The notes under the pieces were generated by a model that saw only the letters and a list, made by a program, of their open reading frames with translations, had not been told where the DNA came from and ran no database searches. The position numbers and the translations under genes were made by a program. From a virus, in the IMG/VR virus record IMGVR_UViG_3300018416_002324, positions 1-22,042 of that record: a DNA stretch of 22,042 nt. The stretch is one strand, 5' to 3'. This document shows, piece by piece, positions 1,443 to 19,732 of the stretch (position 1 is its first letter; every line of letters starts with the position of its first letter).

Positions 1443-1466
1443 ATACATATAGTCAAGGAGAAAGTG

Positions 1467-3674
1467 ATGTTTTCACAAAAATCAGTTCTAGCCCGCTTAC
1501 TCGCTAATGAGAATATTAGCGTCCAGCAGGGCAATTTTAAGACTGCCTTCTTTGATGTCGAGAATCGTGTTCTCGGTCTTCCTCTCTGGAAAGAGATGTC
1601 GGCTGATGTTTATGATCTTCTCGTAGGTCATGAAGTCGGTCACGCATTATACACACCTTCTGTCGATAAGATCCAGATCAAAGGTGTTCCCTTCGCATAC
1701 GTTAACGTGATTGAAGATATTCGGATTGAGAAGAAAGTTCTCTCCAAGTATCCTGGTCTTGTTAACAATTTCAAGCGTGGGTATAAAGAGTTAGTCGAGA
1801 TGAATATCTTCGGCACCAAAGAGAAGGACATTAATGAGATGTCTTTCATGGATCGTCTTAACATCAAAGCCAAAGGTCGTGATCTGGTCGATGTGGAGTT
1901 CTCTGAGGAAGAGCAACCCTATGTCGATATGGCTATGAAGGTCGAGACATTCGAAGATGTTGAGAAAGTTTGCCGTGAGCTGGTTGCTTGGATCGGCGAG
2001 AAGTCTGAAGATCAGCAAGAGCAAGAGTCAGCGATGACTGCCGAGCAAATGCAGGATCTCATTGATCAACTTAAAGATGAAGACCAGACACCACCTCAAA
2101 GTGGTGAAGGTGAGTCAGAAGAATCTGATGAGAATGGTGAGGAGTCTAGCGACTCATCCAGCGACTCAGAAGATGGCGAAGGTGAGGAGTCTAGCGACTC
2201 ATCCAGCGACTCAGAAGAGGGAGATGAAGAGGGCGAAGAAAGTTCTTCTAGCGCCCAAGACACTCCAGCTACCGATGAGTTAGAGTCCGATGATGGCGAA
2301 AAGTCTATCGCTGGCAAAGGGGCTGACGGTGTGCCAGAGGGACTTCCTGAAGTTGAGACTGAGAATGCTCAATCTCAAAACATGGAAACGCTTGTCGATA
2401 GCATCGGCAAAGTTTACGTGCAGGGAATGCCACGTGCGGTTTTCGAAATCCTTCGTAACGATTACAAGACAATTTTGGCTGAGCGAGTAAAGCATGACCA
2501 AAAGCTGGTTGAACTGGGTTACGAATTTGATGAGAATCCCGTTGCGTTTTCTACTTTCATGGCTGAGACCAAGCAAGTGGTTAATCTCATGGCTAAAGAA
2601 TTTGAGATGCGTAAGGCTGCCTATCGTTCAGTTCGAGCCCGTACTTCGACTAAGGGTTCGCTTGATGTGAACAAGCTTCACTCTTACAAGTATGACGACC
2701 AGTTGTTCAAGCAGGTCACTACTCTTGCCGACGGTAAGAATCATGGAATGATCATGCTGGTTGATTACTCTGGATCAATGTATCATCGTTTGCCTGCGGT
2801 AATTCGCCAGACGATTGCTCTGGTTCAGTTCTGCAAGCGAGTGAACATTCCCTTTGAAGTTTACAGTTTCACTTCTACACGTGGTAGCGTTGATCGAGAT
2901 GCACTAAAAGCCGCTTCTAGCAACTTGACCCGATTCGAGTATGATGAACTGGTGTTGAACCAGCTATTCACCAACAAGATGGGCAAGCGTGATTATGATG
3001 AGGCACTGAAGGGCTTCTATGATTCAATCATGAAAGTTCGTTACCTGAACCGATATGAGGCACTGGGAAGCACTCCTTTGAACTCTGCTCTTCTAGCCTG
3101 TGAGCATATCATCAAAGATTTTCGAAAGAACAATCCAGTTCATAAACTGAACCTGATTACTCTGACTGATGGTCACTCAGATGCCGCTAGTATGGTTTAC
3201 GGGGCTGATTATGATCCATATAATTCAGCCGGTCAACGTCAACGTCAGCTAATTATTCCAGTGAACGGAAAGAATGTCACTCTTGAATATGGGTGGGGTC
3301 GATACCGTGAGCAAACTGCCGCACTTCTGAAAGCGATTTCTGGCAATGATATCACCACTGCAAACTTCTTTATCTGTGACCGTCGTGATTTTCGATCTGA
3401 ACAGTATGCAATACTTGCTTGGGATCACGCCGCTCAAAAGAAAGCAAAAAGTGATATGTCAAAGAACGGTGTTTGGATTGTCGAGAACGACTCAGGTTAT
3501 GATCGCCGATTCATTATGCTGGACAAGTCTGCTTCTATGTCAGGTGAGACTGATGAACTTGAAATTGACTCAAGTGCAACCCCAGCCCAGATCGCCCGTG
3601 CCTTCAAAAAGCACAGTGGATCTAAGAAAGGCAACCGAGTTGTTACTCAGAAATTTGCAGAATTAGTTGCCTAA
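1467..3674 (+). CDS. HEVGH zinc-peptidase-like / VWA-domain protein (CobT-like)
   Basis: The start is ATG 1467, six bases after AAGGAG (1455-1460); a GTG at 1464 is too close to that site. Of 735 residues, the N-terminal part holds HEVGH at 55-59 with a downstream NVIED (80-84) that could give the third zinc ligand, as in gluzincin peptidases. Residues of about 205-262 are a Ser/Asp/Glu linker. The C-terminal half is a von Willebrand A domain with the MIDAS motif DYSGS at 433-437 and a later TLTDGHSD. This layout matches the CobT-like VWA proteins that marine T4-like phages carry beside a CobS-like AAA+ protein, which here begins at 4058. AAA+/VWA pairs act as chaperone-like remodelling machines. 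A role in cobalamin synthesis is not supported because no other cobalt-chelatase gene is present. The substrate is unknown. Confidence 0.85.
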   Translation: MFSQKSVLARLLANENISVQQGNFKTAFFDVENRVLGLPLWKEMSADVYDLLVGHEVGHALYTPSVDKIQIKGVPFAYVNVIEDIRIEKKVLSKYPGLVNNFKRGYKELVEMNIFGTKEKDINEMSFMDRLNIKAKGRDLVDVEFSEEEQPYVDMAMKVETFEDVEKVCRELVAWIGEKSEDQQEQESAMTAEQMQDLIDQLKDEDQTPPQSGEGESEESDENGEESSDSSSDSEDGEGEESSDSSSDSEEGDEEGEESSSSAQDTPATDELESDDGEKSIAGKGADGVPEGLPEVETENAQSQNMETLVDSIGKVYVQGMPRAVFEILRNDYKTILAERVKHDQKLVELGYEFDENPVAFSTFMAETKQVVNLMAKEFEMRKAAYRSVRARTSTKGSLDVNKLHSYKYDDQLFKQVTTLADGKNHGMIMLVDYSGSMYHRLPAVIRQTIALVQFCKRVNIPFEVYSFTSTRGSVDRDALKAASSNLTRFEYDELVLNQLFTNKMGKRDYDEALKGFYDSIMKVRYLNRYEALGSTPLNSALLACEHIIKDFRKNNPVHKLNLITLTDGHSDAASMVYGADYDPYNSAGQRQRQLIIPVNGKNVTLEYGWGRYREQTAALLKAISGNDITTANFFICDRRDFRSEQYAILAWDHAAQKKAKSDMSKNGVWIVENDSGYDRRFIMLDKSASMSGETDELEIDSSATPAQIARAFKKHSGSKKGNRVVTQKFAELVA
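2136..2218 (+). repeat. Tandem 38-bp direct repeat, period 45
   Basis: The stretch beginning GGTGAGGAGTCTAGCGACTC occurs at 2136-2173 and again, identical over 38 bases, at 2181-2218. It encodes repeated GEESSDSSSDSE in the acidic Ser linker of the VWA protein. It looks like a recent tandem duplication and may vary in copy number. Confidence 0.9.
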
Positions 3675-3689
3675 AAGTGAAATTAAGGG

Positions 3690-3717
3690 TTGACTTACGG
3701 GTCAATCCTGCTAAAAT
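3690..3717 (+). promoter_or_regulatory. Sigma70-like early promoter P3
   Basis: TTGACT at 3690-3695, 16-base spacer, TAAAAT at 3712-3717 with TG before it. The -35 region and spacer form an imperfect inverted repeat (GGGTTGAC with GTCAATCC). Drives the gene at 3754. Confidence 0.75.
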
Positions 3718-3753
3718 ATAATCTGAAATTGAGTTAAACCTTTGGAGATGAAA

Positions 3754-3990
3754 ATGCAAAAAGTTCAGGAAAAAATGCAAGCGATCAGTGCCGCTCAGAA
3801 TGCCTTCGCTACTATAGAAAGTATTCGACCAGGTGCAATACCTCAAGAAACTAAGGTGCTGTTAGCCGAACTGAAAGTCGATCTAATGGATATACAAGAT
3901 GCCCAAGAAGAGCAAAACTCTTCTGGTCCGTTTGGAGAAATGAACAATTTAGTTGAAAATTTCTTTGAAAATAATGCATTTAAAGGTTGA
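3754..3990 (+). CDS. Small helical hypothetical protein (78 aa)
   Basis: ATG 3754 is chosen because GGAG at 3744-3747 gives a 6-base spacing; upstream in-frame TTG 3742 and ATG 3748 overlap that ribosome site. The 78 residues are mostly predicted helix, with Gln, Glu and Ala repeats (QKVQEKMQAISAAQ) and a second helix around KVLLAELKVDLMDIQDAQEE. This fits a small coiled-coil or helical-bundle protein. No family is recognised. It sits between the CobT-like and CobS-like genes with its own promoter, and its TGA stop lies inside the -35 box of the next promoter, so it may work with that pair. Confidence 0.65.
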   Translation: MQKVQEKMQAISAAQNAFATIESIRPGAIPQETKVLLAELKVDLMDIQDAQEEQNSSGPFGEMNNLVENFFENNAFKG

Positions 3991-4014
3991 CATTGTGGTC
4001 CAACCTGCTATACT
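3987..4014 (+). promoter_or_regulatory. Sigma70-like early promoter P4
   Basis: TTGACA at 3987-3992 contains the TGA stop of the preceding gene (3988-3990). After a 16-base spacer comes TATACT at 4009-4014 in an extended TGC context. The spacer GGTCCAACCTG is the P1-P3 motif, and GGTTGAC with GTCCAACC forms a near-palindrome. Drives the CobS-like gene. Confidence 0.8.
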
Positions 4015-4057
4015 ACTTGTATAGATTGAGATAAACCAAGTGACTGGAGACTATATT

Positions 4058-5260
4058 ATGATGAATTTATCCGAAACCCAAGCCAATCTTCTTGACTCGT
4101 TTGTAGCGGCTCACGAAGGTAAGGCTTCTTTTGAGCGCCAAGAGATGTTTACTTTTGCCGAAGAGAATGGCTTTAGTGGCTCTGCCGCTTACACTCTCAT
4201 GAAACAACTCCCTCGCATCGGTCGTGGTATTTACCAGATGATCGGCTCGGGAAATGTTGTTCCCATGACACCCCAAGTATCGCCGCAAGCGATACCTCAG
4301 CAACCCGCACCAGCCGCACCTGTTGCCGCTGTCGGTAAAGTGCAGTCTACCTCTTCTGAGGAAGTCTACGTGCCTAGTGCTGATTCTACGTTTGTGAAGT
4401 GGGGCTATTTCACTGACGTTAAGAAGATTATTCAAAGCCAACTGTTCTATCCCATGTACGTTGCTGGTCTCTCTGGTAACGGTAAGACGATGATGATCGA
4501 ACAAGCCTGCGCTACCCTCAAGCGTGAATACGTCCGTGTTCAGATTACGCCTGAGACTGATGAGGATGATCTGATCGGTGGATTCCGCTTGCTGAATGGC
4601 GAGACTGTCTTTGCAAAAGGTCCAGTCATCAAGGCGATGGAAGCTGGAGCGATCCTGTTGATCGATGAGATTGATCGTGGCTCGAACAAGCTAATGTGTC
4701 TGCAAGGCATTCTAGAAGGCAAGCCCTTCATGATCAAGAAAACTGGTGAAGTGGTTACACCTCAGCCAGGGTTCAACGTCATTGCTACTGCTAACACTAA
4801 AGGTCAAGGAGATGAACAGGGTCGCTTCATTGCGGCAACGATTATCGATGAGGCATTCCTTGAGCGTTTCACTATTACGCTTGAGCAACCTTACCCTTCG
4901 GCTGCCGTTGAGAAGCGAATCGTTAACAACCACATGACCAAGTTCGGTGCGAATGATACTGAGTTTGCTGAAAAGCTAGTGCAATGGGGTCAAGCGATCC
5001 GTAAGACTTTCCAAGAAGGTGGGGTCGATGAGATCATCTCAACTCGCCGTCTGTGCCACATTGTTCAGACCTTCTCAATCTTCAATGACCGAATGAAGGC
5101 TATCGAATTGTGTGTCAATCGTTTCGACACTGATACACGTGGTGCCTTCATCGATCTTTACACTAAGATCGACACTGGTGCATACCAGACTGAAGAGATC
5201 CTCTCTGAGATGGACGCACCAACGCCCACCGATGAGGACTTAGCCAACACCCAGTTCTAA
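4058..5260 (+). CDS. cobS: CobS-like AAA+ ATPase (MoxR-type), phage family
   Basis: The start is ATG 4058 (or 4061) behind TGGAGA at 4045-4050; the in-frame GTG at 4040 lies upstream of that site. The 400-residue protein has a small N-terminal helical domain (1-62), a Pro/Ala/Gln linker (68-95), then an AAA+ module with Walker A GLSGNGKT (137-144), Walker B ILLIDEID (199-206), a sensor-type VIATANTKG, and a C-terminal helical lid. This is the protein annotated as CobS in marine T4-like phages. In bacteria CobS is the ATPase of the aerobic cobaltochelatase. Without CobN, and next to a VWA/HExxH partner, the phage protein is better seen as the motor of a two-part remodelling system. It ends 18 bases before a strong terminator, closing the early block. 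Confidence 0.88.
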   Translation: MMNLSETQANLLDSFVAAHEGKASFERQEMFTFAEENGFSGSAAYTLMKQLPRIGRGIYQMIGSGNVVPMTPQVSPQAIPQQPAPAAPVAAVGKVQSTSSEEVYVPSADSTFVKWGYFTDVKKIIQSQLFYPMYVAGLSGNGKTMMIEQACATLKREYVRVQITPETDEDDLIGGFRLLNGETVFAKGPVIKAMEAGAILLIDEIDRGSNKLMCLQGILEGKPFMIKKTGEVVTPQPGFNVIATANTKGQGDEQGRFIAATIIDEAFLERFTITLEQPYPSAAVEKRIVNNHMTKFGANDTEFAEKLVQWGQAIRKTFQEGGVDEIISTRRLCHIVQTFSIFNDRMKAIELCVNRFDTDTRGAFIDLYTKIDTGAYQTEEILSEMDAPTPTDEDLANTQF

Positions 5261-14432: not shown

Positions 14433-15314
14433 ATGCGTGGTTTTTCGACTTACTTAACAGAGGCTTTAGTCGAAGAGTATCTATCGGAACAGTACGATAT
14501 TCTTCTAGAAAAACTGATCACATTCGGTGGTCAGGCTTATCCTAAATTTGGTAACATTGTCATCATGGCAGGTGGGGCTGGATCAGGAAAAGGATTCATT
14601 AAGGACAAGTTAGTCGGTATCGAAGGTAAGACATTTGATGTAGATGAACTCAAGGGAGCGGCAGCCGCATCTCCTGCTATTCAAGCACGTATTAAGAAAG
14701 AACTTGGACTAGACATTCAGAAGATTGGCGCTGATCTTAAGAAGCCAGAGAACGTTGCTAAGATGCATCAGATTGTTGGTGACTACTTAGACCTAGACAA
14801 TCGTGTAAAGAAAGCATTGTACAGAGGCATTCTACTTGCAGATCCAGACCGTAAGCCGAATCTAATATTTGATGTAACACTCAAAGACTTACGCAAACTA
14901 CAAAATATTTCGAGTCAAGCCCAAGCACTAGGATACGCAAAAGAGAACATCCATATCGTATGGGTAGTTAATGATATCGAAGTTGCAAAAGCACAGAACC
15001 TAAAACGTAGCCGTACAGTACCCACAGAAATATTAGTCAATACTCATCGTGGAGCATCTCAGACCATGCTTGATATTGTAAGCATGGGCAAGACGTTGAA
15101 AAAGTACATGGATGGCGACATCGTGTTTGCGTTTAATAAAGTAGGCGTAGATAGTACGATCTCTAAGTCTACCAAAGGCGGCATGTACGTGAAAGATGCT
15201 AATTACTTCTATGTTAAGAGAAAGCAGAAAGACGTTACTCCAGCCGATAAGCTAGATAAGACGTTGAGAATGAAGATCAAATCATATGTACCTGCTAATT
15301 CAGAGTGGCTGTAG
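14433..15314 (+). CDS. P-loop (zeta-toxin/AAA_33-like) kinase with possible capsid-targeting N terminus
   Basis: ATG 14433 follows AAGGA. The 293-residue protein has Walker A GGAGSGKG (47-54) after a NIVIMA beta strand, then TFDVDELKG, a helical insert, LIFDVTLKD (Walker-B-like), and WVVNDIEVAKAQNLKRSRTV with the Arg-rich lid typical of zeta-toxin/polynucleotide-kinase-like enzymes. The substrate is unknown. The N terminus MRGFSTYLTEALVEEYLSEQ resembles the T4 capsid-targeting sequence of internal proteins (MKTYQEFIAEA) and has L-x-E sites (LVE, LSE, LLE) like those cut by the gp21 prohead protease. With a perfect late promoter upstream, it could be packaged in the capsid and injected. That is inference. 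Confidence 0.75.
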   Translation: MRGFSTYLTEALVEEYLSEQYDILLEKLITFGGQAYPKFGNIVIMAGGAGSGKGFIKDKLVGIEGKTFDVDELKGAAAASPAIQARIKKELGLDIQKIGADLKKPENVAKMHQIVGDYLDLDNRVKKALYRGILLADPDRKPNLIFDVTLKDLRKLQNISSQAQALGYAKENIHIVWVVNDIEVAKAQNLKRSRTVPTEILVNTHRGASQTMLDIVSMGKTLKKYMDGDIVFAFNKVGVDSTISKSTKGGMYVKDANYFYVKRKQKDVTPADKLDKTLRMKIKSYVPANSEWL

Positions 15315-15380: not shown

Positions 15381-15941
15381 TTGAATTTAAAACAGCTAAC
15401 AGCAGAAAACCATAGATCAGCAGAACGCAAAGAGTTTGCTAAAATATTGATGAGCGGCGAGATTGACCCCGCTCTCTATTACAGATACTTAATTAACCAA
15501 TCCCAAAACTACGTTGTACTTGAGCAGGCTCTCAAAGAGCTGGCATTTCCTCATGAGTTTAGGTCCGTGTTTAGAGCAAAGCGCATTATTAATGACCTGC
15601 AAGAACTTGAGGAAACTTATGGCTTCACGTATGACGAACACCTGATATGTAGATCAACCCAAGAATATGCAAGTCACATCGAAATGCTTCTTATGAACGA
15701 AGATGTAGACGGAATAATTTCGCACTTATATGTGCGACACTTTGGAGATATGTATGGCGGTGCAATGATCGCTAAACGTATTCCAGGTAGTGGTACGATG
15801 TATGAATTTGATAATAAGGAATCTATGAAAGAGAACATTCGGCTGTTGCTGAATGATAATATGGCAGATGAGGCAAACAGGTGCTTTGCCTTTGCGATTA
15901 GACTATTTGAGGAGCTATTACATGAAGAGCGAATTGGATGA
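15381..15941 (+). CDS. hemO: Heme oxygenase (phage HemO/HO1-like)
   Basis: The start is TTG 15381: GGAG at 15370-15373 gives 7-base spacing, and the nearby ATG codons are out of frame. The 186 residues follow the HO1 fold: LTAENHRSAE near the N terminus supplies the proximal heme ligand His11, and HLYVRHFGDMYGGAMIAKRI matches the distal-helix Gly-rich motif (GD.xGG) that holds oxygen above heme. The enzyme opens heme to biliverdin IX-alpha, CO and iron using electrons from ferredoxin or similar. Shorter than plastid or cyanobacterial enzymes but sized like phage HemO. It lies in one operon with the bilin reductase at 16068, which would use its product. The rare TTG start may lower expression. 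Confidence 0.85.
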   Translation: MNLKQLTAENHRSAERKEFAKILMSGEIDPALYYRYLINQSQNYVVLEQALKELAFPHEFRSVFRAKRIINDLQELEETYGFTYDEHLICRSTQEYASHIEMLLMNEDVDGIISHLYVRHFGDMYGGAMIAKRIPGSGTMYEFDNKESMKENIRLLLNDNMADEANRCFAFAIRLFEELLHEERIG

Positions 15942-16071
15942 ATCATTTGAAAGACTAATGGTTGCTTTTGGAGAGAGGCAGAAAAGACTTGATCGAATTA
16001 ATACGATGCTATATGGTCTTTATGTACTCATCATAGTAACTACAGTTGTGGGAGCAGTGGTGTTCAAATGA
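15922..16071 (+). CDS. 49-residue single-pass membrane peptide between hemO and pcyX
   Basis: ATG 15922 follows GAGGAG at 15909-15914 inside the end of the heme oxygenase gene, a 20-base overlap. The frame opens further upstream, but no ribosome site supports an earlier start. Residues 1-27 are a charged helix (ELDESFERLMVAFGERQKRL), and residues 29-48 are a membrane helix (LYGLYVLIIVTTVVGAVVF) ending in Lys. The TGA stop overlaps the ATG of pcyX (ATGA). This three-gene coupling suggests a role in the same pathway, for example tethering the enzymes to the membrane. That is inference. Confidence 0.65.
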   Translation: MKSELDESFERLMVAFGERQKRLDRINTMLYGLYVLIIVTTVVGAVVFK

Positions 16072-16754
16072 GTATTATATGGGAAAGTTTGATTGATCTA
16101 CAAAACAATCTAATATCACAACTTGAAGAAGACGCAACCGAGATTCGAGAACCTGGCATGGAAAGATTCAATCAGCCTGGTTGGGTAAACAGAGTTTGGC
16201 GTAACGATAACTACAGACGGGCTCACGTAGATGTTGTTGATATGCGTGAAGAGAAAAAGTTGTGGATGATGCATGTATGCGTTTTTCCTCACGTACATAA
16301 TGACGGACCAATCTATGGGTTTGACGTTATTGCTGGTGCTAACAAGATGACTGGAGCATTCTATGACTTCTCATCTACCACTAATCAAGATCATCCTATG
16401 ATTGAGCATTTCGCAAAGATTGCTAAGACGCTAGAATGGAAAAGAGAAAGAGAGTTACCGCCATGGGCGAAAGCAATCTTCAGTGATCATATGATCGCCG
16501 CTGGTATGGTCAAAGAGCCGGCAGAGATCGATCAGATATGTAAGGTTGCCAGAGAAGGTCTGTGTTACTACAAGAAGAACATTGGCAAGTATAACGGATA
16601 CTCAGATAGCGATTTCGGTAAAGCAACTCAAAACTATTATGCTACACATCAAAAAATGAATCCTCACACTCCTAACGTGATGAAGAGTCTAGGACTAGAT
16701 CCAGATGATGTTGATGCATTTATATCCGAGTCTTTATTTCCTGAAATATTGTAA
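16068..16754 (+). CDS. pcyX: Ferredoxin-dependent bilin reductase, PcyX-like
   Basis: ATG 16068 overlaps the preceding TGA. The 228 residues match the ferredoxin-dependent bilin reductase fold. WMMHVCVFP holds His69, equivalent to PcyA His88, and GPIYGFDVIAG holds Asp86, equivalent to PcyA Asp105. MTGAFYDFSSTTNQDHP follows the PcyA substrate-pocket segment. Asp55 seems to stand where PcyA has Glu76. The PcyX group, known from uncultured oceanic phages, reduces biliverdin to phycoerythrobilin, so with heme oxygenase the pair would make a pink bilin from heme in two steps. PcyA, PebS and PcyX cannot be separated for certain by eye; the non-cyanobacterial context favours PcyX. No ferredoxin gene is seen in this window. 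Confidence 0.83.
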   Translation: MSIIWESLIDLQNNLISQLEEDATEIREPGMERFNQPGWVNRVWRNDNYRRAHVDVVDMREEKKLWMMHVCVFPHVHNDGPIYGFDVIAGANKMTGAFYDFSSTTNQDHPMIEHFAKIAKTLEWKRERELPPWAKAIFSDHMIAAGMVKEPAEIDQICKVAREGLCYYKKNIGKYNGYSDSDFGKATQNYYATHQKMNPHTPNVMKSLGLDPDDVDAFISESLFPEIL

Positions 16755-17473: not shown

Positions 17474-18439
17474 ATGGAAATGTTAACACTATGGAGCGCA
17501 GTTGGGTTCCTATTCGCCGCTTATGCGGTAATCGCAAATGATTCAGTACAGACGCTAGGTACTTGGATGGCATCTAACAATGAGCGTTTCAACTACAAGA
17601 CGTTATGGGCAGCCGCAAGTGCAGTACTACTTGCAACGCTTTGGTATGGTTGGACAGTGAATGGCGGTGACATTAGTTACGGTCGTCTAAACAAGATTCC
17701 CTGGCAAGAGGTTCAATGGTATCATGCCGCAGCCCCAGCCATTCTTGTTGCACTGACTAGACTTGGTGTACCTGTATCTACTTCATTCTTGGTGTTATCA
17801 GTATTTGCTTCAACTTTCGTGTTGGAGAAAATGCTTATGAAATCGATCATGGGGTATGGTGTAGCCGCAGGCTTTGCATACATGATATGGTTTGCTATCA
17901 CTAAGTATGCTGGTCATTGGTTCGATGAGACACAGCCTGTAACTGAAGATAACAAAAAGTATTGGCGTATTGCTCAATGGTTTGCAACTGGTGGATTGTG
18001 GTGGACTTGGCTGTCACATGACATGGCAAACATCGCAGTATTCTTGCCACGTGTAGTTCCTGTAGACTTGATGATTGTGATCTCTGCCGTTTTCGTGGCA
18101 GGGCTGTTCTTCATGTTTAGAGAGCGTGGCGGTAAGATCCAACAGATCGTACTAGAGAAGCATAACACTCGTTATGTCCGAAGTGCGACACTGATCGATC
18201 TGTTCTACTGGTTATGCTTATACTTCTTCAAAGAACTCAATGACATTCCTATGTCTACTACTTGGGTCTTTGTTGGTCTACTTGCAGGACGTGAACTCGC
18301 AATGGCTACATACTTTGGTAAGCAAAAGACCAAGAGTGTGTTCCCATTAGTTGCGAAAGACTTTGGCAAGATGATGGTAGGACTTGGCGCATCTGTTGCT
18401 CTAGTATTGCTAGTGCATTATGTGATAAATCCTATGTAA
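17474..18439 (+). CDS. PiT-family inorganic phosphate permease
   Basis: ATG 17474 follows AAGGAG. The 321-residue protein has about 8-10 membrane helices and the duplicated PiT signature: ANDSVQTLGTWMAS and GVPVSTSFLVLS in the first half, SHDMANIAVFLPR and DIPMSTTWVFVGLLAGRE in the second. These correspond to the GAND and PVSTTH motifs of proton/sodium-coupled phosphate carriers. The central hydrophilic loop is short, which gives a compact member; bacterial PitA is longer (about 500 residues). It should import phosphate through the inner membrane during infection. Marine phages more often carry pstS or phoH for phosphate stress, so a PiT permease is a less common solution. It ends just before a late-like TAAATA box. 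Confidence 0.86.
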   Translation: MEMLTLWSAVGFLFAAYAVIANDSVQTLGTWMASNNERFNYKTLWAAASAVLLATLWYGWTVNGGDISYGRLNKIPWQEVQWYHAAAPAILVALTRLGVPVSTSFLVLSVFASTFVLEKMLMKSIMGYGVAAGFAYMIWFAITKYAGHWFDETQPVTEDNKKYWRIAQWFATGGLWWTWLSHDMANIAVFLPRVVPVDLMIVISAVFVAGLFFMFRERGGKIQQIVLEKHNTRYVRSATLIDLFYWLCLYFFKELNDIPMSTTWVFVGLLAGRELAMATYFGKQKTKSVFPLVAKDFGKMMVGLGASVALVLLVHYVINPM

Positions 18440-18446
18440 CTAAATA
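18439..18446 (+). promoter_or_regulatory. Late-like promoter box ACTAAATA
   Basis: Overlaps the PiT stop region. Two mismatches from TATAAATA, but the following ATACATGAGAGAA is nearly the same as that after the late box at 15319. Too close to the 45-residue ORF (ATG 18451) to be its only promoter. Confidence 0.35.
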
Positions 18447-18450
18447 ATAC

Positions 18451-18588
18451 ATGAGAGAAAAATGGAAGGCATTAGTAGACTGGCTTGCAAACCCAATGGT
18501 ATTCATGTGGGGTACTTTTGCCTTCTTTTTTATTAAGGGCTTAGTCTGGCTCGTATTGTTGTTTTTTGGTTACTATTTTGTAACTTAA
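18451..18588 (+). CDS. 45-residue membrane peptide
   Basis: ATG 18451 to TAA 18586-18588. Residues 1-12 are charged (MREKWKALVDWL), and about 15-44 are very hydrophobic with Phe, Trp and Tyr (FFFIKGLVWLVLLFFGYYF), long enough for one helix or a tight pair. No good Shine-Dalgarno sequence is seen, and the start is 11 bases after the PiT stop, so it may be coupled to PiT. The clear membrane pattern argues for a gene, the missing ribosome site against. Its stop is four bases before the tmRNA -35 box. Confidence 0.5.
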   Translation: MREKWKALVDWLANPMVFMWGTFAFFFIKGLVWLVLLFFGYYFVT

Positions 18589-18591
18589 TGC

Positions 18592-18620
18592 TTGACACAA
18601 GCCCATTACCATGTTATATT
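18592..18620 (+). promoter_or_regulatory. Sigma70-like promoter of tmRNA
   Basis: TTGACA (18592-18597), 17-base spacer, TATATT (18615-18620) with TG before it. Expected start is near 18627, just before the tmRNA acceptor piece. Confidence 0.8.
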
Positions 18621-18621
18621 A

Positions 18622-18629
18622 GATAAATA
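18622..18629 (+). promoter_or_regulatory. T4-type late promoter GATAAATA overlapping tmRNA start
   Basis: One mismatch from TATAAATA, immediately after the sigma70 -10 box. Late transcripts would begin near 18636, at or inside the acceptor piece. Confidence 0.45.
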
Positions 18630-18695
18630 AGAGTGATTCGCTGAAGCTTATCAACGCTGGACAGGACTCGGGTGCGACTCCCGACAGCTCCACCA

Positions 18696-18777
18696 AAAGT
18701 ACATTGCGCCTTACTGCAATAAGGTGTCTTTGCAGGGACACAGACCTCGCAAGGGTCGAAGACAATGTATTTTTGAT
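18696..18777 (+). other. tmRNA intervening segment, folds as closed three-hairpin junction
   Basis: Begins right after the encoded CCA and ends at the first base of the coding piece. AAAGTACATTG (18696-18706) pairs with CAATGTATTTT (18763-18773), 11 bp with one G-U. Inside are CCTTA/TAAGG (18709-18724), GTGTC/GACAC (18724-18741) and GACC/GGTC (18743-18757) hairpins, with loops of 6, 8 and 7 bases. The segment should be removed by RNase P and 3' processing enzymes, leaving two RNA pieces. Confidence 0.75.
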
Positions 18778-18863
18778 GGGGCTGAAGTAGGAATCGACTG
18801 ACAGAATAGAGAACGTGGAGAATTCGGGCGCAAGCTCCGTTAACGCAAGAACCTAAACTAAAC

Positions 18864-18908
18864 GCAAACGATAACTTTGCACCTTCAGAGTACGCCCTAG
18901 CGGCATAA
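18864..18908 (+). other. tmRNA tag reading frame ANDNFAPSEYALAA
   Basis: Fourteen codons from GCA 18864 to TAA 18906, preceded by ACTAAAC, with hydrophobic ALAA end as needed for ClpXP-type proteolysis. The charging alanine is added before the first encoded residue. Confidence 0.92.
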
Positions 18909-18920
18909 ACTGACGGGCTG

Positions 18921-18954
18921 CCGACTTGCCTTGGAACAGAAAAGTCGGACCAAG
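18921..18954 (+). other. tmRNA H-type pseudoknot
   Basis: CCGACTT (18921-18927) pairs with AAGTCGG (18942-18948), and the loop CTTGG (18930-18934) pairs with CCAAG (18950-18954). It lies just after the tag stop, where tmRNAs carry pseudoknots. Confidence 0.75.
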
Positions 18955-18979
18955 TTTCAATAATAAGAAAGGAAATCTA

Positions 18980-19348
18980 ATGAAACTCGTAATTGCAACT
19001 GTTGCGGCATTAACAGCAACCACTGCATATGCAGACTCTATGTGGTCATTCGGTGGTGACGTAGACGCTAACTATGCTGTAGATGCAGAACGCATGACAG
19101 TTGACATCGAACCGGCGTTGACATTTTCACCAACTGAAGGCTTGAACTTTGTAACAAGCACAGAGTTGGCACTATGGGATAACGAATTGGTAGCAGATAA
19201 CACTATCGAAGTTATGCCTACGCTTGATTTCGAATTAAACTATACTATGGGCGCAATGGATTCTGTAGAGTACTATGCAAAGACAAAGTACAACCTAGAG
19301 TCTGCCGCACGTGAAGAGATTCATATCGGCGCAACTTTTAGCTTCTAA
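18980..19348 (+). CDS. Small outer-membrane-type beta-barrel protein (122 aa)
   Basis: ATG 18980 follows AAAGGA at 18968-18973. The frame opens further upstream to a TTG at 18926, but that part lies in the tmRNA. Residues 1-19 are a signal peptide ending AYA. The mature protein of about 103 residues has amphipathic strands (MWSFGGDVDANYAV, RMTVDIEPALTFS, LNFVTSTELALW, NTIEVMPTLDFELNYTM, SVEYYAKTKYNL) and ends EEIHIGATFSF with a terminal Phe, the classic signal for Bam-dependent insertion. It resembles a compact eight-strand barrel. Acidic, unlike the basic barrel at 16919. A superinfection-exclusion or receptor-masking role is possible; no family is recognised. Confidence 0.72.
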   Translation: MKLVIATVAALTATTAYADSMWSFGGDVDANYAVDAERMTVDIEPALTFSPTEGLNFVTSTELALWDNELVADNTIEVMPTLDFELNYTMGAMDSVEYYAKTKYNLESAAREEIHIGATFSF

Positions 19349-19468: not shown

Positions 19469-19732
19469 ATGTCATCAATTATAATACCGTCAAGCGAAGC
19501 TGATCGTAAGCGCATTAAAGAAGCGATGGAAGAAATCAGCAATTCATACTTGCGACAAGAAGCCGAACGTGAGTTTGTAAAGGAAGCAATTATTTCCCTT
19601 GAAGACGATGTTGGTATACCTAAAAAGTATCTCGGCAAAATGGCTCGCATCTATCATAAGCAAAATATGAGCGAGATCGTATCAGAGATTGAAGAGATTG
19701 AAGCCCTTCTTGAAACTGTAAATAATGCTTGA
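19469..19732 (+). CDS. dsbA: DsbA-like dsDNA-binding protein (T4 late transcription)
   Basis: ATG 19469 follows GAGGA. The 87-residue length is close to T4 DsbA (89). The pattern ISNSYLRQEAEREFVKEAI, then VGIPKKYLGKMARIYHKQNM and IEALLETV, matches the marine T4-like phage group of this small helical protein, which in T4 binds double-stranded DNA near late promoters. The location before the gene 33-, 59- and 32-like genes repeats the T4 order. The TGA stop (19730-19732) lies inside the -35 box of the next promoter. Confidence 0.82.
   Translation: MSSIIIPSSEADRKRIKEAMEEISNSYLRQEAEREFVKEAIISLEDDVGIPKKYLGKMARIYHKQNMSEIVSEIEEIEALLETVNNA

Follow-up and report, generated by a model that had tools for sequence, protein, structure and literature searches.

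A conserved folded RNA in the spacer of a circularly permuted phage tmRNA gene

Introduction

What becomes of the stretch that separates the two halves of a circularly permuted tmRNA gene, and can it have a role of its own when the gene is carried by a phage? Phage tmRNAs are already known, and their spacers have so far been treated as waste, normally discarded. The window analyzed here (the whole stretch of 22,042 nucleotides, a 22-kb IMG/VR fragment) contains such a gene, and its spacer appears to be under stronger constraint than any other part of the gene, the same RNA being kept elsewhere in phages whose tmRNA lacks it. If the spacer acts as a small RNA independent of the tmRNA, genes of this permuted kind would have two products and the element would provide a handle on the way marine phages manage host translation. 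The spacer RNA, rather than the tmRNA, is worth following.

The permuted tmRNA gene and its neighborhood

A circularly permuted tmRNA gene, complete and with the tag ANDNFAPSEYALAA, occupies positions 18623–18951 of the window (plus strand, as all features mapped below between 18592 and 19732). ARAGORN reports a permuted tmRNA* at 18603–18999 with this tag, and two Rfam covariance models match significantly, above their gathering cut-offs: RF04321 tmRNA_permuted (18635–18908, 98.9 bits, E 1.8e-18, cut-off 47) and RF01849 alpha_tmRNA (18588–18951, 74.3 bits, E 8.3e-19, cut-off 50), the latter being the top-scoring model within its Rfam clan in a scan from which lower-scoring clan members were dropped. 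The three concur on what the initial annotation had read from the letters, a phage-encoded two-piece tmRNA of alphaproteobacterial type, and its coordinates (18630–18957) were accurate to about 10 nt.

The acceptor half with its CCA lies 5′ of the coding half. The acceptor (3′) piece (18623–18695; ARAGORN, Rfam and direct reading), whose 5′ end at 18623 is inferred from the promoter, includes GGAC (18664–18667), a T-arm with the stem TCGGG/CCCGA and the loop TGCGACT (the hosts sampled usually have GGC(G/A)GTA), the acceptor 3′ strand CAGCTCC (18685–18691), an A and the encoded CCA (18693–18695). After a spacer of 82 nt (18696–18777), the coding (5′) piece (18778–18951, its end taken from the alpha_tmRNA model) comprises the acceptor 5′ strand GGGGCTG (18778–18784), a D-like loop and the mRNA-like part. 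All seven pairs of the acceptor stem form, G3-U70 included, and the tag frame found by ARAGORN (18864–18908) is complete, with codons at 18864–18905, a TAA stop at 18906–18908 and a hydrophobic degradation end (ALAA), in agreement with the earlier reading of both features. The tRNA-domain pairs, CCA, tag frame and order of halves are those of the Caulobacter-type RNAs described by RF04321 and RF01849.

Directly 5′ of the gene is a sigma-70-like promoter (18592–18620; TTGACA-17-TATATT with TG before the second hexamer) with 11 of 12 consensus matches. Since the scanned region holds four such sites and 4.8 are expected in shuffles, the argument for this promoter is its position and not the count; the Methylophilales phage Melnitz has TTGACA-17-TATAAA at the equivalent place upstream of its tmRNA. 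An open reading frame of 122 aa with a signal-peptide-like start (18980–19348), for which no family was found in Pfam or PHROGs, begins 28 nt past the end of the tmRNA model and is probably co-transcribed with it. It is followed by a gp33/DsbA-like late transcription regulator (19469–19732; PF11126, 2.7e-9; phrog_639), a conserved neighbor of phage tmRNAs that has a counterpart of the same kind in Melnitz. The surroundings also encode CsgG, a curlin-repeat protein, a FecR-domain protein, gp59 and a gp32-like single-strand binding protein, and the T4-like context suggested at first is borne out by the gp33-like regulator, gp59 and gp32 immediately downstream.

Elsewhere in the window, a heme oxygenase (PF01126) adjoins a ferredoxin oxidoreductase family protein (phrog_7278) at 15381–16754, much like the pairs for bilin synthesis known from phages, although this phage does not look like a cyanophage. 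A protein with a Zeta-toxin-like kinase domain (PF06414, weak match) is encoded at 14433–15314, and a peptidase-family protein and an AAA ATPase (phrog_459 and phrog_249) with likeness to a cobalt-chelatase-type module at 1464–5260.

Relation to other phage and host tmRNAs

As a tmRNA, the window gene is nothing unusual among marine T4-like phages. The initial annotation had taken a permuted tmRNA in a T4-like genome for rare or undescribed, a view overturned by published and database examples. A permuted alpha-type tmRNA was described in 2022 in the T4-like marine OM43 myophage Melnitz (MZ577097), in a study that put the number of two-piece phage tmRNAs at 53, of which 50 came from marine or aquatic samples (PMC9004378); permuted forms are what RF04321 was made to detect, and the corresponding database includes 79 unique tmRNAs of phages, all forms counted (PMC11915505). 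One scan of viral contigs yielded at least about 80 permuted tmRNAs among at least 124 loci, and 153 permuted tmRNAs from four scans together were parsed into pieces, well over 100 being in IMG/VR contigs.

Melnitz resembles the window in its curli genes and in a tmRNA immediately upstream of the late-transcription coactivator with equal promoter spacing. Its tag is ANDNYVPVDYALAA, and it differs in a spacer of 142 nt with a small open reading frame instead of the element described below, as well as in a glutamine riboswitch just 3′ of the tag frame (52.8 bits); the riboswitch model RF01739 has no match in window 18400–19100 at E up to 10. The Pelagibacter phage HTVC008M has the curli module in common with the window, and according to ARAGORN this part of its genome contains no tmRNA.

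Is the gene a decayed remnant from a host chromosome? Its alpha-type sequence would fit such an origin, but the stems and tag are intact, a promoter-like site is present and, when 165 tmRNAs are placed on a tree, the 35 alphaproteobacterial genes fall into a single clade that excludes the 130 phage genes (the window row duplicating that of L041), so that this reading is largely refuted and very improbable. The proposed comparison with host ssrA genes thus gave no sign of recent transfer from a sampled host, which is all that the tree argues against, the alignment being short and the hosts sampled only 35.

The search for smpB that had been recommended came out negative: SmpB (PF01668) was found in none of 37 phage records, including the complete Melnitz, HTVC008M and Bajun and the fragmentary record of the window, and was detected in the 10 control genomes. 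Host SmpB is therefore probably used. The absence of a phage SmpB from these records would also suit an RNA that inhibits host tmRNA or acts as its decoy in place of a working rescue RNA, for which the tmRNA without a CDS of phage DS6A provides a reported precedent (cited in PMC11915505). This is improbable, as the tag frame, G3-U70 and the ALAA end are intact in the window and its relatives retain a complete frame with varied tags.

A conserved fold in the spacer

The most unusual part of the gene is the spacer. A covariance model of it, R1, matches window 18696–18773, leaving TGAT (18774–18777) before the coding piece. In an alignment of 20 distinct spacer-element sequences, the outer stem P1 (18697–18706 with 18763–18772) has double changes in 6 of 10 pairs and 99% of cells paired, and the hairpin P2 (18707–18726; 7 bp) has them in 6 of 7 pairs with 100% of cells paired. 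The 6-nt loop of P2 (CTGCAA, 18714–18719) is complementary to TTGCAG at 18730–18735, and this loop pairing keeps six of six pairs in all 20 sequences, with double changes in three. The hairpin P4 (18743–18757; 4 bp, loop TCGCAAG), which could not be aligned for lineages B and C, shows double changes in one of four pairs and 94.9% of cells paired. Taken together, P1, P2, the loop pairing and P4 have 98.9% of cells paired and 16 of 27 pairs with double changes; none of 500 shuffles reached any of the measures, and slid controls were 34–41% paired. The same anatomy with a different sequence occurs in a second lineage (L013, L495, L615, L640 and others; ATGCAC/GTGCAT) and in a third (L019/L685; CTGTAA/TTACAG), the loop pairing covarying across the three. 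The 82-nt spacer is thus a conserved folded RNA in its own right.

Because a 6-bp loop pairing, a 7-bp stem and a 3-nt linker are sterically tight, the two helices may be alternative states, and a pseudoknot, kissing hairpins (TGTC-TTTGCAG-RGACA) or alternating helices are all possible. Pairing of a hairpin loop with a downstream strand is also found in the pistol, preQ1 and SAM-II pseudoknots, which are self-cleaving RNAs or riboswitches. The present element differs from these in that no described Rfam family matches any of the three elements searched at E up to 5–10, all matches being at chance level and far below cut-off.

The spacer of the window recurs, with its length of 82 nt, in 28 phage tmRNAs, 15 of them distinct. 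Among 14 distinct tmRNAs the spacer has an identity of 0.908, compared with 0.752 for the acceptor half, 0.736 for the 5′ domain, 0.801 for the tag and 0.57–0.58 for the flanks, and it exceeds the mature tmRNA in 88 of 91 pairs, figures that are inflated because most relatives were picked by a pattern inside the element. Between the window and L072, which was picked by a tmRNA motif and not by that pattern, identity is 0.84 in the spacer and 0.66–0.73 in the mature parts.

Copies outside tmRNA genes

The element is also present without a tmRNA, in 20 stand-alone copies of which 19 sit 9–17 nt before a tRNA; the exception is a lineage-B copy in L029 with no tRNA nearby. According to ARAGORN, 17 of the 19 stand-alone copies of lineage A precede tRNA-Trp, and in L283 and L352 the element is 5′ of tRNA-Cys, followed by tRNA-Trp. 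A terminator-like hairpin and a T-run precede the element in the stand-alone copies displayed. In L299 (850–1000), L324, L336 and relatives a conserved stretch, TTGGCCACC...GGGGTATGTCTTGACGTGACTTT, lies 5′ of the hairpin and the element and may represent either another small RNA or a promoter region.

A search with R1 found exactly one copy, either in the tmRNA spacer or on its own, in each positive phage contig (n = 25, including a T4-like contig of 160 kb), most of these contigs being fragments in which a second copy is possible outside the assembled part. Six contigs (G161, G163, G173, G175, G177 and G009) carry a stand-alone copy together with a permuted tmRNA that lacks the element; many other phage tmRNAs and all sampled host tmRNAs lack it as well. 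The single copy and these six contigs indicate that the element is apparently needed once per phage and not by the tmRNA. R1 has no match in the whole Melnitz genome, and no related match to the element was obtained among named phages and plasmids. Run against 399 genomes of the host phylum, R1 gave none either, which is weak evidence given its strict filters and lack of a positive control. No literature on spacer elements of phage tmRNAs was found among open-access papers, and the spacer RNA is apparently undescribed.

The occurrence of one element at two unrelated positions, and of near-identical spacers in otherwise diverged tmRNAs (in L340 identity is 0.93 for the spacer and 0.67 for the 5′ domain), would be expected of a selfish or mobile RNA or DNA cassette that inserts beside tRNA-like genes. 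Such a cassette is nevertheless an unlikely explanation of an element that has a single copy per contig, no open reading frame and covariation at the RNA level, and whose positions nearly always fit tRNA-type processing.

Possible roles of the gene and its spacer

The reading favored with good confidence is that of a complete permuted tmRNA that works with the host rescue machinery and whose conserved pseudoknotted spacer would be released as a small RNA. Host RNA polymerase would transcribe one precursor, which RNase P and 3′-processing enzymes would cut at GGGG and CCA, and the two tmRNA pieces would stay paired via the acceptor stem. Host AlaRS would charge this two-piece RNA, and host SmpB and ribosomes would use it, stalled nascent chains gaining the end ...ALAA and passing to host Clp proteases, which may keep translation running during infection. 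The same tRNA-type cuts would release the 82-nt spacer, which would persist as a small phage RNA of its own. Whether the spacer RNA lies in a tmRNA gene or in a tRNA transcript, RNase P would generate its 3′ end by cutting at the 5′ end of the next tRNA-like sequence, which may be why such different genes host the element.

Host two-piece tmRNAs have parsed spacers of 5–53 nt (about 10–12 nt in SAR11), all without the element, whereas phage spacers range from 7 to 247 nt, a range partly shaped by the length limits set in two scans. The 103 unique phage spacers of at least 45 nt end in a stem (median 10 bp), and this closing stem reaches at least 7 bp in 92% of them and in 3% of shuffled sequences. 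With the position of the element, always just 5′ of a tRNA or tRNA-like 5′ end except in L029, this speaks for a mere processing or folding aid, a stem that joins the halves and exposes the cut sites for RNase P and at the CCA. That the element is no more than this appears rather doubtful: it is missing from many phage tmRNAs and from every host tmRNA sampled, the six contigs with an element-free permuted tmRNA keep one copy elsewhere, and a closing stem alone leaves the covarying pseudoknot, the single copy and the conservation above that of the mature tmRNA unexplained.

An independent role is somewhat more plausible than such an aid, and can be put forward tentatively: the RNA of tmRNA spacers and tRNA-Trp transcripts may represent a new class of phage small RNA, single-copy, of about 78 nt, pseudoknotted and acting on its own in infection. 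It is conceivable, with similar reserve, that this class borrows tRNA processing for its ends and is directed at targets such as host translation, RNases or defence. In E. coli, tRNA processing likewise frees 3′ETS-leuZ, a spacer RNA, from a tRNA transcript; the likeness is one of process, and the window element differs in being phage-borne with a conserved, covarying fold.

Other spacers and the Melnitz riboswitch

The spacer was also considered as a decayed tRNA, and this was rejected: ARAGORN detects no tRNA in any spacer tested, and T-arm-like hairpins (e.g., AGGGTTCAAGTCCCT) occur in only 6 of 97 phage spacers (L022, L073, L079, L107, L115 and L433; 0.4% of shuffles), the window not among them. 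In those six the hairpins are possible tRNA remnants.

An open reading frame that starts with ATG, encodes 25 aa or more and has a Shine-Dalgarno-like sequence is present in 14 of 53 unique phage spacers of at least 90 nt, compared with 2% of shuffles (L002 from 2939 onward, L088, L064, L086, L069, L513, L570, L575, L603 and others). Some encode peptides that resemble a single membrane span and end in ...YLVFF, with TGA just before the GGGG of the tmRNA; judged from their sequences, these frames look like small protein genes nested in tmRNA genes.

Finally, the Melnitz riboswitch was examined as a possible artefact of the tmRNA motif GAAGUAGG, an explanation rejected in view of its 52.8 bits; the riboswitch is real. 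It lies at L002:3240–3288, between the tag frame and a short open reading frame further downstream (ATG at about L002:3311), and given this location it may control that frame and not ssrA as published.
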